32,878 nucleotides of DNA from Candidatus Amesbacteria bacterium (GCA_027371535.1 DAHXMV010000001.1:1-32878); one strand, 5' to 3'; counted from the stretch's first letter, positions 26,101 through 32,772 are shown. The notes: generated by a model from the sequence alone, not told the origin. A program made the numbers and translations.

Positions 26101-26366
26101 TCAGAACTTTTTCCTGACAGATTCTGATTTAATTATTTCTTCGATCAATATCCTGCTTTTTTGGGTTTTTAACCATAATTCGGCTCTTCTGGCAAAAATT
26201 AGCCCGGAATAATTTTGTTGAAAGACCAAATCGTATGGACCAGTTTCTCTTGTATATTAGGATTTCCCCGATAATGCTCTTCCAACCGCCTGTTTATATC
26301 GTTTGTACTTCCAACATAAAATCTGCCAGTGCTCAGACTTTTCAAAATATAAACACAGGGTTTCAT
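26101..26366 (-). pseudogene. GIY-YIG endonuclease gene broken by a one-base deletion
   Basis: From ATG 26366 the frame reads MKPCVYILKSLSTGRFYVGS and then INRRLEEHYRGNPN, the N-terminal half of a small (UPF0213-type) GIY-YIG nuclease. It then hits a stop early. One frame over, the C-terminal half continues as GPYDLVFQQNYSGLIFARRA, then ELWLK, with the conserved Glu, and ends at TGA 26101. The total of 266 bases is one short of 89 codons. The break lies near 26250-26258 (around residue 39). Either the gene is inactive or the base is missing by sequencing error. It lies between tRNA-Asp and a duplicated tRNA-Asp 5' half. Confidence 0.85.
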
Positions 26367-27963: not shown

Positions 27964-28464
27964 ATGTTTGTACCCAAAGACTTTAATCCCAAAAACCTGG
28001 AAAAGGAGAAATACACGGCCAGAAAGCTGACGGCCAGGGATGTATATCCGGATTTTATAGCCGTCATGTCCAGCATGGATATTATCCACCTTACCCGTGG
28101 CGGCAAATGGCCGACACCGGATATAACGATCGAAGAAGATCTGATAGATCTTTCCTGGCACCAGCGGGAATTTGAGTTTAAGACCTCTTTTGCCTTCACC
28201 GTGATGAATAAAGACGAATCCGAGTGCCTGGGGTGTATCTATTTTTACCCGCCCAAAACCGGCATGTCCGATGCCGCCAGTACAGATGGCTATGAGGTGA
28301 ATGTATCCTGGTGGATCACCCAAAAATTTTACGATCTGGGGATGTATGACGAGGTTTGCCGGGATATCCGCGACTGGGTTGATAAAGATTGGCCTTTTAA
28401 GAGAGTTTTCTTTGCCAACAAGCAGCTGCCGGAGGGATTTGAGAGAGAATTGGTGAAAAGTTAA
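27964..28464 (+). CDS. GNAT-like acetyltransferase family protein
   Basis: The 166-residue protein starts eight bases after the 3' end of tRNA-Gly and has no ribosome binding site. It has the look of a small GNAT-fold family: TARKLTARDV near the start, a Trp/Pro region (GGKWPTPD), ECLGCIYFYPP as a central strand and motif region (about 91-101), VSWWITQ (beta 5 region) and DWPFKRVFF near the end. I cannot name the substrate, and the acetyl-CoA loop is not clear-cut. Its last 78 bases occur again, diverged, at 32695-32772, so the genome has or had a paralog, and the two ends bracket the accessory island. Confidence 0.65.
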   Translation: MFVPKDFNPKNLEKEKYTARKLTARDVYPDFIAVMSSMDIIHLTRGGKWPTPDITIEEDLIDLSWHQREFEFKTSFAFTVMNKDESECLGCIYFYPPKTGMSDAASTDGYEVNVSWWITQKFYDLGMYDEVCRDIRDWVDKDWPFKRVFFANKQLPEGFERELVKS

Positions 28465-28581
28465 GCAGATTGACAGGAAGGCTGGTATAGCTTCACAGAC
28501 ACGCATTGCACCAAGGCACAAGCCCCTTATAACATTCATCTGACTTGGTTATTAACCGAAATGTGAGAAAATCAACCGGAT
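28465..28581. other. Non-coding gap with a possible promoter of the dNMP kinase-like gene
   Basis: TTGCAC (28506-28511) and TATAAC (28528-28533) with a 16-base spacer form a fair promoter about 48 bases before the ATG at 28582. Nothing else is seen here. The gap is the left edge of the accessory island. Confidence 0.35.
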
Positions 28582-29241
28582 ATGGAAATTGATAAACCAA
28601 CTAACCATGGAATACTTATTGAGGTTGAAGGTGTGGATGGTTCAGGTAAAACGACATTTATTAATAATTTCAGGTCGGAACTTAATAAGACCGGTATTAC
28701 CAATGCCGTATTTAAAAACCATTTGGGTATGGAATCACCGTTTTGGAATTCATTCGTAAAAACACGCAGTCAGTTAGATGAAAAAGGGCTAAAGATTTCT
28801 GATGATGCAAGCAGAGTATTGCAGACAGCAGAATTTTTAATGTTTACGAGGTTTGTTCTTCCCGAGTTACTGATAAATAATCAAGTGGTTTTAGCCGATA
28901 GATATTCAATAGCCAAACGGGTTGATTCCAAGGTAAGTCTTGATGGAAAAACCGGATCTGCAGAACTGATGCTGGATGTCGCGGATGATATTAAAAAACC
29001 AGACATAATTTTTTACCTCAGGGTAACTGCTGAAACCGCATGGAAGAGGCTGGCCGGCAAAGTATCGAAAGACTGGAAAGAAAACCTTAATATATTATCG
29101 ACTGCAGTTTATTATTATGACCATATAATGGCTGAAACTCCAAATGTTGTGGTACTTGATTCAGAAACAGAACAAAAAGACATTCAAGTAATCGCCTTAA
29201 GAGAATTCCGTGAAAAATATCCGCATCTTTTTAAACCCTGA
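28582..29241 (+). CDS. Thymidylate kinase-like (d)NMP kinase
   Basis: The 219-residue P-loop kinase has Walker A GVDGSGKTT (17-25) in the typical EGVDGSGKTT context, a DRY motif (Asp106-Arg107-Tyr108) as in thymidylate kinases, and PDIIFYLRVTAETAWKR, matching the conserved strand and basic helix before the lid. TMP kinases phosphorylate dTMP to dTDP. The body of the sequence is divergent, and the region between the P-loop and DRY is not standard, so another nucleotide or a small-molecule substrate is possible. It is AT-richer than the core genes and converges on the minus-strand operon with a 15-base gap. Confidence 0.8.
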   Translation: MEIDKPTNHGILIEVEGVDGSGKTTFINNFRSELNKTGITNAVFKNHLGMESPFWNSFVKTRSQLDEKGLKISDDASRVLQTAEFLMFTRFVLPELLINNQVVLADRYSIAKRVDSKVSLDGKTGSAELMLDVADDIKKPDIIFYLRVTAETAWKRLAGKVSKDWKENLNILSTAVYYYDHIMAETPNVVVLDSETEQKDIQVIALREFREKYPHLFKP

Positions 29242-29256
29242 TATTGCTTAGGTGTT

Positions 29257-29927
29257 TTAAATATTTTGAAGCATTTGTTTGAGCGCAATATTTTTTGTTT
29301 TACTAATAGCGGACGTGTATTTTGTATTTTTATAAAGTGTTTGGTAGTCGCCATCAAGACGCCCCTGATAATATTTTAATGCACCAAGCAACCGGATTTT
29401 TTCTCTGGGCAATATCGAGCTATAGTCATCCAATGCTATACCTTTTATATAAGAAAGACCCTCAATTGCTATGTTTTGGTTAATATTAAATAATCTGACT
29501 ATATAAAATATCAAAATGTTAGTTAATTTAAAATATCTTTGGTAAACAGTCTTCAGGTCATAGTCATATTGTTCTTTAAGCAGATGGGTGTTATTTAAAA
29601 TGAAAGGATAAAAATCAACAAAATATTGTCCTTTTACGCCTAAAAAATTGTTTGGATTTGAGTCTATTCCGAACTTCTTTAAGGATAATAACCTTATGCG
29701 GTCAATTATTTTAACCGCGTCAATGAGGGTTTTTCATTAATTTTTTCCTGGGAGAAAGTCAGATATGGTTTATTATAAAATAGTTCTGTTTCGGGAGTCA
29801 GGAACCCGGCTTGATTGAGCCAATGGCAGTAAGCTGGTATTTCTTTGGAAATGATCTCAAATACCAAAGGTGATGTTATGACTTTCTTTAAGATTTTATT
29901 ATTTTCTATAAAAATTTGACTTCTCAC
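29257..29927 (-). pseudogene. Unrecognised gene with a one-base frameshift, last of the island operon
   Basis: ATG 29927 overlaps the stop of the nucleotidyltransferase gene by four bases. The frame gives about 67 sensible residues (to KINE) and then meets a TAA at 29706. One frame over, an open frame continues without stop from about 29734 to 29257 (TLIDAVKIIDRIRLLSLKKF and on to KNIALKQMLQNI). Joined, it would be a 223-residue, mostly helical, Tyr/Leu/Lys-rich protein of no family I know. The span of 671 bases is one short of 224 codons. The break maps to the A5 run (29730-29734). It may be a true mutation, a sequencing error or a programmed slip. Confidence 0.7.
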
Positions 29928-30946
29928 AGCAAATTCATCGGAAGCAAGTAATCATTGCTATCTCTAAGATATAAAAAATCATCGTGATCACCGGTTATCT
30001 TTGCACCTTTGAATAAATATCTATGACCAAACTTGGCACCATCATCCCCCATCCCCTGATGCGACCAAGAAAAGCTAATTGCATCAATAATGTTATGACC
30101 AAGGGCCAATTTCCAAACTTTAGGAAAATTATAAGAATCATCAGCAGAAATAACCCGACATTCAGATACAATATCACTGCTTTCCCAATCTTTATCAATA
30201 CCCTGTAAAAATTTTTTAGCAGGTGTATGGTTATAATCTGAATTAATACATTGCAAACTTGTGGGAACACCTTCCGAGCTTATCCATCTCATTCTCTTGT
30301 CTGCCAAATAACATCCTGCCTGAATCGGAATTTGGAACTTTCTGGAATAATGCGCAGCATATTCCACATCCTTACCTGTTTCTTTTGTAGTTTTGTACCC
30401 CATTTCTCTAAAAGTTTTATGAATTTTGTCTAAAAATTCCGATTTATTGAGGATACTTACCCAGGCGATCAAATCCATGTCCGAGTCCACAGAGTTCAAA
30501 CCCGGTTGATTTGACCCAAAAACCCCCAATTGATATTCGTGATTAAACCCTGATCTGAGCATATTATTCTTAATATTTGTGGCTAGCTTATCGGACCCGG
30601 AAGACAGAAAATCGTTTGACTCAAAGTGACTGGAATACCAGGTTAATTCCGGGTTATCCTGTAAGAATAGCAGCGGCTTGTGGTAAATATTCATAAGGAG
30701 CTCGTTTACCTGAATTTGGCTAGAAAAAGCCGCCTCCTCGTGAATTAACCTATTTCTACGATATAAAGACGGAAAATGAATATTTCCCCTATTACCTTGA
30801 GCATCGGGAGAATAACTTCTATTGACCGGTAAAACAGCCCCGATGCTAGTAATTAGCCTGTATAGACCTTTAAAATGATAGATGTCTCCGGAAAGATTTC
30901 GGATAGCCGATAGTTCCGGATGGGATGAAACTTCATATTCGATCAT
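29924..30946 (-). CDS. Nucleotidyltransferase-fold protein
   Basis: The 340-residue protein carries a clear Pol-beta-type nucleotidyltransferase motif: GVFGSNQPGLNSVDSDMDLI (residues 141-160), that is Gly144-Ser145 followed by Asp156-x-Asp158. A third acidic residue may be Glu204 or Asp202 downstream. The N-terminal 130 residues and the C-terminal half match no family I recognise, so the enzyme is not a plain minimal toxin-antitoxin NTase. Its start overlaps the stop of the metallo-hydrolase by four bases (ATGA), and its own stop overlaps the next gene likewise. It could transfer a nucleotide to RNA, protein or a small molecule. Confidence 0.72.
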   Translation of the reverse strand: MIEYEVSSHPELSAIRNLSGDIYHFKGLYRLITSIGAVLPVNRSYSPDAQGNRGNIHFPSLYRRNRLIHEEAAFSSQIQVNELLMNIYHKPLLFLQDNPELTWYSSHFESNDFLSSGSDKLATNIKNNMLRSGFNHEYQLGVFGSNQPGLNSVDSDMDLIAWVSILNKSEFLDKIHKTFREMGYKTTKETGKDVEYAAHYSRKFQIPIQAGCYLADKRMRWISSEGVPTSLQCINSDYNHTPAKKFLQGIDKDWESSDIVSECRVISADDSYNFPKVWKLALGHNIIDAISFSWSHQGMGDDGAKFGHRYLFKGAKITGDHDDFLYLRDSNDYLLPMNLL

Positions 30947-31905
30947 AAGTCTAATTTCCGCCCTAAATAATGGGGCAGAATTAGATGATATGGCTGATCA
31001 CCAAAAAACAATTTGTAGAGATAATTACTATCTTCGCCTTCTGCATTGACGGGTGAAATATGCTGTAAGAGAACTTGTTTTACCAATGAGTCTTTGAATA
31101 AATCCAATAAATCCCACCCGCTCAGATGATATTTGGAATGTTTGTTGTATTCCAAAGCATTTATATTAACCAACGCAATATCAACATCAGAGTAAAAATC
31201 CTTTATATATTGATGTTTTTCTTCAATCGAAGCGAATTCCCCTTCGGTTTTATCGGAATCATAGTTACCTAAATCCGTTTTAACTTTAATCGCATAACCG
31301 GTGTCGGTGACATAACCGAATACTTTTCCGTCTATATCAATTTTAAATCCGAATGTGTCCGGACAACTATGGTACAAAGGGATAAACTTGGCCGGATACC
31401 GATCCAGAATTTTATATTCCTGAACCTGTCCAGAGTCCTTCAAAAGATGAAAAATAATGTGTTTGGCTTCCTTTAACTTATTCTGATAATATTCGGGGAT
31501 TTTGGTCTTAAAAGCATCGTCAGAAATATAAAGGGTTATTTTCTTTGATTCGTTTCTGAGGACCTTTTCCAAAAAAACCAGGGTATCTGCGGTGTGATCG
31601 ATGTGGTTATGAGTAATAATTACGGTCTGAATGTCATTCGCAGACAATCCGGTTGCGGTAAACCTGGTGTAAAAATCAACCCCCGGATCTACCAGTATTA
31701 AACTTCCATCAAGATCAAGTATGAAACCGTTAAAATACCACTGATCACTTTGAAATTCTTCAGAAGTGTCAAAAAACTGCTTCGGAATGAAAACCCTATA
31801 TTTGGTAATGTTTTTTTTAAGATCGCCGGATTTGACCAACTTTTTAAGGTTGTTCTTTTTGAGATAAATTTCTTTGGAAATATTAATCAGGTCATTTTTA
31901 TTCAT
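30943..31905 (-). CDS. Metallo-beta-lactamase-fold hydrolase, RNase Z/PhnP-like
   Basis: The 320-residue protein has the metal motif THNHIDH (His99, His101, Asp103, His104), then His179 in PLYHS, Asp201 in YVTDTGY, and HLSGWDLL (His260) followed by LLQHISP (His282). The last two match the HST-type and final-His motifs of RNase Z and PhnP-like phosphodiesterases, so a dinuclear zinc phosphodiesterase is likely. The N-terminal 50 residues are an extra helical part. It follows the kinase gene by one base and overlaps the nucleotidyltransferase gene by four, so all are made together. Substrate (RNA 3' end, cyclic phosphate or other) is open. Confidence 0.85.
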   Translation of the reverse strand: MNKNDLINISKEIYLKKNNLKKLVKSGDLKKNITKYRVFIPKQFFDTSEEFQSDQWYFNGFILDLDGSLILVDPGVDFYTRFTATGLSANDIQTVIITHNHIDHTADTLVFLEKVLRNESKKITLYISDDAFKTKIPEYYQNKLKEAKHIIFHLLKDSGQVQEYKILDRYPAKFIPLYHSCPDTFGFKIDIDGKVFGYVTDTGYAIKVKTDLGNYDSDKTEGEFASIEEKHQYIKDFYSDVDIALVNINALEYNKHSKYHLSGWDLLDLFKDSLVKQVLLQHISPVNAEGEDSNYLYKLFFGDQPYHLILPHYLGRKLDL

Positions 31906-31906
31906 A

Positions 31907-32485
31907 TTAATTTATATTATCATCCAATAACCCATTTAAATGAATAATGACTTCGTGATAGGTATTATCCAGCCTTCCTTCATTGTTAACTATTTTAAAT
32001 TTGGAATTTGCCCAATATTTGATGTGTTTAAGATCTAACCTGCTTAACTGACGTTTAAAATGCGTATCCGGCTTATTCCCCCTGTATACTGAAAGCGTTG
32101 GGCTTATCTTTAAAACCACCACTCCAATTACCCTGTTTTCTTTCAGCATTTCTTTGGTATCAATTTGAACGCCATCAATGATCAGATTTACTCCAGTACC
32201 AGAATATGCCCCTATGATTACCCGGACCAGGTTTTTAAAGATAGATGTAGCTTCATTACCGTCGAAATTTTCCAGACTACTGGAATTTATATCCGGCCTA
32301 AAATATCGAATCATTTTGCTCACAACGCCCAAATTGATAGACTGATAAAAATCAAAGTCCTGTATCAGTTTTCTGCAAATAGTTGTCTTTCCTGCCGAGT
32401 TGTTACCTGTCACGATAAATATTACCGGTTTACCTGTGAGATTAAGCTGTTTAATTTTTTTATTTATGTCGGTTTTCAAACTCAC
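31907..32485 (-). CDS. P-loop kinase, first gene of the island operon
   Basis: I place the start at GTG 32485, giving 192 residues, because a strong promoter ends seven bases before it. A longer frame runs to ATG 32593, but the promoter lies inside it. The protein has Walker A VTGNNSAGKTT (26-36 region), an IIDGVQ stretch like the Walker B/substrate strand of 2-phosphoglycerate kinase and related kinases, and an Arg/Lys-rich lid region (RGNKPDTHFKRQLSRLDLKH). I would call it a small-molecule or nucleic-acid-end kinase; the exact family is not certain. Its stop is one base before the next gene. Confidence 0.75.
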   Translation of the reverse strand: MSLKTDINKKIKQLNLTGKPVIFIVTGNNSAGKTTICRKLIQDFDFYQSINLGVVSKMIRYFRPDINSSSLENFDGNEATSIFKNLVRVIIGAYSGTGVNLIIDGVQIDTKEMLKENRVIGVVVLKISPTLSVYRGNKPDTHFKRQLSRLDLKHIKYWANSKFKIVNNEGRLDNTYHEVIIHLNGLLDDNIN

Positions 32486-32492
32486 AAATTTA

Positions 32493-32521
32493 ATTATATC
32501 AATAAACCTATAGTATTGCAA
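32493..32521 (-). promoter_or_regulatory. Promoter of the island operon
   Basis: On the minus strand TTGCAA (32516-32521), a 17-base spacer and a perfect TATAAT (32493-32498) are followed after seven bases by GTG 32485. This is the best promoter in the window and points to a leaderless message. Confidence 0.7.
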
Positions 32522-32593
32522 AAACATTATTTTCTTTATCTCAAATAATTTATAGAGTTTCCAAAGACGGGATGACAGAGACCAAGTTTGCAT

Positions 32594-32694
32594 ACTTCTG
32601 AAAAATGGTTAATCTCTTTAAAAATCCCGTATATACAAAAAAAATAAATTATTTTTACCTAAACCGAAAAACTTTACATATAACCCCTGTATAG
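32594..32694. other. AT-rich non-coding right edge of the island
   Basis: About 100 bases of A/T-rich sequence with no gene that I can support. It ends exactly where similarity to the GNAT-like gene begins, after an in-frame TAG. Confidence 0.5.
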
Positions 32695-32772
32695 GACTGG
32701 CCGTTTAAGAGGGTTTTCTTTGCCAACAAACAGCTACCGGAGGGATTCGGGAAAGAATTCATTAAAAATTAA
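32695..32772 (+). pseudogene. 3' remnant of a second GNAT-like gene
   Basis: These 78 bases encode DWPFKRVFFANKQLPEG and then FGKEFIKN plus a stop, and align without gaps to the last 78 bases of the GNAT-like gene (28387-28464). I count 66 of 78 identical bases and 20 of 25 identical residues; several of the changes are silent third positions. A stop codon precedes the first matching codon and no start is present, so only the gene end survives. Confidence 0.85.

Follow-up and report, generated by a model that had tools for sequence, protein, structure and literature searches.

MBL-fold phosphodiesterases of the RNase Z, PhnP and Apyc1 branch share the metal ligands HxHxDH, His, a DTG Asp and a C-terminal His, with an HS/HT motif ahead of the last His. 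2-Phosphoglycerate kinase (2PGK) is a P-loop enzyme acting on a small molecule. Inositol-phosphate glycosylation of the mycothiol type involves MshA and INO1, together with MshB, MshC and MshD. Drug-modifying enzymes make use of protein-kinase-like, nucleotidyltransferase and CPT-like P-loop folds. An RNA 2'-kinase, ArkI, has been described in archaea (PMC9095486).

Here we describe a cassette from a Candidatus Amesbacteria bacterium that encodes a P-loop kinase, an MBL-fold hydrolase, a Pol-beta-type nucleotidyltransferase (NTase) and a fourth protein. Judged by their sequences, these components belong to known superfamilies, while their combination has no named counterpart in Pfam, NCBIfam, PADLOC, PHROGs or the open literature searched, as a preliminary description of this DNA had supposed. 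Nor does any of the genes pass a curated cut-off for a single-function family, so that the cassette does not dissolve into ordinary unrelated genes.

The island and its cassette

The window, i.e. the whole stretch of 32,878 nucleotides that was analysed (GCA_027371535.1, DAHXMV010000001.1:1-32878), contains an island at 28465-32694, which fills precisely the space between the copies of a 78-bp direct repeat. The left copy (28387-28464, plus strand) corresponds to the 3' end of a GNAT gene (27964-28464) and the right copy (32695-32772, plus strand) is 85% identical to it. Of the 12 differences 8 are found at third codon positions, and most are synonymous. Boundaries of this kind, direct repeats at the 3' end of a gene, are a mark of integrative elements, and the layout would be the expected trace of an insertion at the gene's 3' end, by which that end was replaced. 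The GC content is 0.355 inside the island and 0.462 to its left. Since other nearby 4.2-kb stretches are as low as 0.317, GC alone is insufficient to prove a foreign origin; together with the repeat, it strengthens the earlier view of an accessory island. We recognised no integrase-like ORF within the island's 4.2 kb. An empty site was sought via the GNAT homologues in four relatives and could not be demonstrated, because these have other neighbours than the window's gene.

The cassette occupies 29257-32593 on the minus strand, in the order P-loop kinase, MBL hydrolase, NTase and gene 4. The kinase and MBL genes are separated by one base, the MBL and NTase genes overlap by ATGA, and the NTase gene and gene 4 by GTGA, in agreement with the one-base gaps and four-base overlaps previously reported. 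The first three genes are intact and tightly coupled; gene 4 is not intact. The single strong promoter proposed for the cassette was not confirmed: 16 promoter-like sites were counted, compared with 18.2 expected in shuffles, which is not above chance, and the best one (32522-32493) falls within the annotated kinase ORF. The island cargo further includes a thymidylate-kinase-like gene (28582-29241, plus strand; PF02223, 9e-16), which converges on the four genes as described before. It scores 62 bits with TIGR00041, below the dTMP-kinase equivalog cut-off of 83, and was not found beside the other three cassettes described below. Elsewhere in the window, at 26199-26366, a short ORF resembles a truncated GIY-YIG endonuclease.

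The same four families are found together in three further genomes (G023, G702 and G766), where the proteins keep their motifs and are about 22-33% identical to those of the window. Absence of the set from every other genome, named beforehand as an outcome that would refute the preliminary reading, was therefore not what we observed. G023, from another family of the window's class, was found by one weak match in an NTase search. At its locus the MBL homologue is 33% identical, the P-loop gene lies on the other strand and the fourth gene encodes 246 aa. The MBL profile then led to G702, which belongs to another class, and to G766, from the genus of G702; both have intact operons in the window's order, and the three proteins compared between them share 65-73% identity. 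The MBL-profile searches covered 374, 380, 197 and 384 genomes in overlapping draws and gave matches in four genomes only, the window genome included; the cassette is therefore rare and scattered. The four-gene block is genuine and conserved, recurring in four distantly related small-genome (CPR-like) bacteria. Single-sequence scans of genome contigs and viral contigs with the NTase revealed no relative, and MBL-profile scans of contig sets returned generic MBL genes only, mostly from Micrarchaeota and without partners. Nothing was found in NTase and gene-4 scans of viral contigs, nor by tblastn in phages (MBL) and plasmids (NTase, gene 4).

Affinities of the encoded proteins

The superfamily assignments previously made for the first three genes were correct, and the motifs Walker A GNNSAGKT, HNHIDH and GS-x11-DxD are all present. 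The P-loop kinase (31907-32593, minus strand; 228 aa) is 2-phosphoglycerate-kinase/zeta-like and has an acidic DGVQ motif; we take this DGVQ/EGVQ motif to resemble the EGVH motif of 2PGK. The closest curated model is that of 2PGK (NF003259/PRK04220), with 1.2e-8 for the G702 homologue (L024). This copy reaches 34.7 bits, whereas the equivalog cut-off is 343, and the likeness is confined to short stretches around the P-loop in a domain that is shorter than that of 2PGK. There is also a weak CPT match (0.0026).

The MBL hydrolase (30943-31905, minus strand; 320 aa; Lactamase_B_2, 1.3e-16) has the complete binuclear metal-site motif of RNase Z (HxHxDH, His, Asp, His) as well as the HS/HT motif of the RNase Z/PhnP/Apyc1 branch. 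Its metal-site residues H99, H101, D103, H104, H179, D201 and H282 are invariant in the four copies. The protein differs from this branch by a KHxKYH signature of its own, likewise invariant, and by its scores with the RNase Z model TIGR02651, which are 41.4 bits for the window copy and 43 bits for that of G702, compared with an equivalog cut-off of 292.95.

The NTase (29924-30946, minus strand; 340 aa) contains GS-x11-DxD, which corresponds to the Pol-beta motif GS-x(8-12)-DxD. The motif is conserved among the CPR copies; the aligned Asgard copies show it in the form GS...DxD. At the strand aligned with the third catalytic carboxylate the CPR copies have no acid, and a Glu is present in some archaeal copies only. 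The C-terminal domain is predicted to be an OB fold, aligning with the OB folds of SSB, RPA and editosome proteins at a Z of about 11, in a model whose mean pLDDT is 51 and higher in parts of this domain. In the Foldseek list for this model, OB-fold matches masked any NTase relatives.

An archaeal family of this protein was found in Asgard genomes. The alignment with a Lokiarchaeota protein has an hhalign E of 4.5e-7 over 243 columns, and the NTase profile recognises members in 71 of the 167 Asgard genomes, where they frequently stand in tandem pairs. The homology is collinear over the full length (N-terminal domain, GS...SDID core and C-terminal OB region). We presume that the archaeal family is COG1665. 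The Asgard copies differ from those of the cassette in that they often form tandem pairs near pterin/C1 genes. Such pairs were seen at loci L055, L056, L059, L062, L063, L065 and L070, and genes for FolE2/GTP cyclohydrolase, a DHPS-like protein, and FTR or F420 ligase lie near Asgard copies. The 53 neighbours include FolE2 (3), FTR (2), F420 ligase (2) and a KTI12-type kinase, immediately behind which one NTase pair is situated. Such neighbours suggest that the archaeal proteins take part in pterin/C1-cofactor synthesis. Beside the NTase genes at 16 Asgard loci, neither an MBL nor a kinase-like partner was found.

Gene 4 had been regarded as an unrecognised helical protein. Its reading frame is broken upstream of the catalytic motif by a -1 frameshift, which falls in an A-run (29733-29745; GAAAAACCC). 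The 5' part (29706-29927, minus strand) begins with GTG at 29927 and reaches a premature stop after 73 codons; the remainder (29257-29733, minus strand), a 158-codon open stretch with the signature DSNPNNF...YFVDFYP, is in the -1 frame. When the two parts were joined, the alignment with the fourth gene of G023 (locus L003) reached the C-terminus and scored 66, whereas the best of 1000 shuffles scored 64. With the G702 and G766 copies the score was not above shuffles, and a profile built from the three remaining copies missed the window gene at E below 1. For these reasons the homology is moderate and not strong, and it is at this strength that pairwise shuffles, signature and position argue for placing the window gene with the other fourth genes. 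Scanned against 1.3 M six-frame residues, the pattern D-x-x-P-x-N-F ... [YF]-x-D matches the four fourth genes and nothing else, the pattern being derived from these very sequences. It contains a catalytic-loop D..N and a DFG-like Asp, as in protein kinases, at all four loci.

Database comparisons of the family gave matches below the thresholds. The fourth gene of G023 matches DUF6206 (PF19709) over the catalytic-loop signature at 5.3e-5, with 23 bits compared with a gathering cut-off of 30.4, and that of G702 matches ABC1 across the same signature at 1.6e-3, also below the gathering cut-off; the window gene matches neither. The best PDB profile match is NEK2 (E 1.1), and structure prediction gave no usable model for the family (pLDDT 36). 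On its signature, protein-kinase-like is a better description of gene 4 than the earlier one of an unrecognised helical protein.

Neighbouring genes and a possible function

In G702 and G766, the cassette extends an operon in which an NDP-sugar epimerase/dehydratase gene precedes one for a GT4 glycosyltransferase, and the P-loop gene overlaps the latter. Since both genomes are of one genus, these shared flanks count once. In G702, gene 4 is followed by a myo-inositol-1-phosphate synthase (MIPS; PF01658, 3e-31; TIGR03450, 433 bits), which is absent from G023 and the window genome; in G766, a histidine phosphatase gene lies directly behind the fourth gene. A GT9 gene adjoins the cassette of G023, and the window genome has, within about 4-13 kb, ORFs judged by eye to be of polysaccharide type, which begin about 3 kb past the island. 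The G702 operon resembles the mycothiol pathway in having GT4 and an INO1-type MIPS. It differs in that genes like MshB, MshC or MshD were not recognised in it, and the mycothiol pathway does not include the kinase-MBL-NTase-kinase core. Between the epimerase and GT4 of the same operon, a transglutaminase-like protein is encoded (L024, 5611-6531).

We propose, at a probability of about 0.42, that the cassette specifies a phospho- and nucleotidyl-transfer pathway on a small molecule, feeding glycan or cyclitol chemistry. In this scheme a single small phospho-metabolite, probably the phosphate of a sugar or cyclitol, would pass through the four enzymes in turn: both kinases would phosphorylate it, the NTase would attach a nucleotidyl group, and hydrolysis of a cyclic phosphate or phosphodiester would fall to the MBL enzyme. 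Glycosyltransferases would then take up the product, which would end in a surface glycan or glycolipid. This proposal draws on the recurrence of the four families, with their motifs, in three other genomes, on the apparent closeness of the P-loop protein to 2PGK, on the epimerase, GT4, MIPS, phosphatase, GT9 and polysaccharide-type ORFs near the cassettes, and on the archaeal NTase relatives near pterin/C1-cofactor genes in Asgard. Against it stand the extra neighbour genes, which are not common to all four loci, and the predicted OB fold of the NTase, which resembles OB folds binding ssDNA or RNA. Moreover, proximity to glycosyltransferases may be due to chance, because CPR genomes carry many of them. 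The idea of a nucleotide-linked metabolite, one of those raised in the preliminary description, fits the sugar and cyclitol neighbours in two genomes, while that of defence did not gain ground.

It is possible, though doubtful, that the cassette is a self-contained pathway without a described counterpart, in which the archaeal-type NTase works together with the kinase-like protein, the 2PGK-like kinase and the RNase Z-like hydrolase, and which makes a new nucleotide-linked molecule or a new RNA mark and is carried between CPR bacteria on small repeat-flanked islands. Whatever their product, the four genes form a defined set open to experiment, intact in G702 and G766, and belong to a radiation with poorly known metabolism. 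Through them a CPR nucleotidyltransferase is linked with an archaeal family for which our searches revealed no assigned function, and the substrate of either, once solved, would inform both.

Alternative explanations

The same enzymes could act on RNA or nucleotide ends, the NTase adding nucleotides to RNA (perhaps tRNA), the kinases phosphorylating ends or the 2'-OH, and the MBL trimming or opening phosphodiesters. This idea, also contained in the preliminary description, is based on the OB domain of the NTase and on RNase Z being among the nearest models of the MBL; the Asgard NTase pair directly behind a KTI12-type kinase would fit it as well, and ArkI may serve as a precedent. However, OB folds are known also in proteins that do not bind nucleic acids, the MBL is far under the RNase Z cut-off (41 versus 293 bits), the P-loop protein is 2PGK-like and not polynucleotide-kinase-like, and an RNA-repair gene was not recognised beside any of the four loci. 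We consider such a role rather unlikely. Modification of a protein or an aminoglycoside-type drug by the kinase-like protein and the NTase, giving resistance or regulation, has very little probability: the folds are those common in drug-modifying enzymes and the CPT match points the same way, but no cassette protein passes an ANT, APH or CPT family cut-off, the NTase belongs to an archaeal family of different architecture, and the MBL resembles RNase Z rather than a lactamase. Just as improbable is a part in anti-phage defence or conflict, in which the island would produce or degrade a nucleotide signal. The cargo is mobile-looking, sporadic and repeat-flanked, and the MBL distantly matches the anti-Pycsar enzyme Apyc1 (5e-5); yet PADLOC has no match for the MBL, the NTase or the kinase-like protein, no effector (nuclease, pore or NADase) was recognised in or beside the cassettes, and the NTase resembles an archaeal family near cofactor genes. 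Weak P-loop cross-matches in PADLOC are all that it returned, and the defence-type modification suggested earlier thus received no positive support.

A different question concerns the window copy itself, for which it is quite conceivable that it is a decaying remnant without present function; this would be compatible with a function of the family elsewhere. Gene 4 is frameshifted ahead of its catalytic motif and, barring an assembly error, is probably inactivated in the window genome, and in G023 a different gene is frameshifted, also at an A-run. On the other hand, genes 1-3 retain their reading frames and motifs, the large neighbouring genes in the window are intact, as are the cassettes of G702 and G766, and assembly error or recoding are alternatives for the break in gene 4. 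The gene concerned in G023 is that of the P-loop kinase (L003, 6058-6720), likewise split by a -1 frameshift, at GCAAAAAATTAAG, with an in-frame A AAA AAT; the A-run lies at L003 6466-6473. A shared programmed -1 frameshift was considered and is unlikely, because the window sequence at this point, GAA AAA CCC, does not form a canonical slippage heptamer, though G023 has A AAA AAT. In the same region of G023, a methyltransferase-like gene (L003, 11847-12570) has an apparent frameshift near an A-run, a hint that homopolymer errors or decay of the region may be involved.
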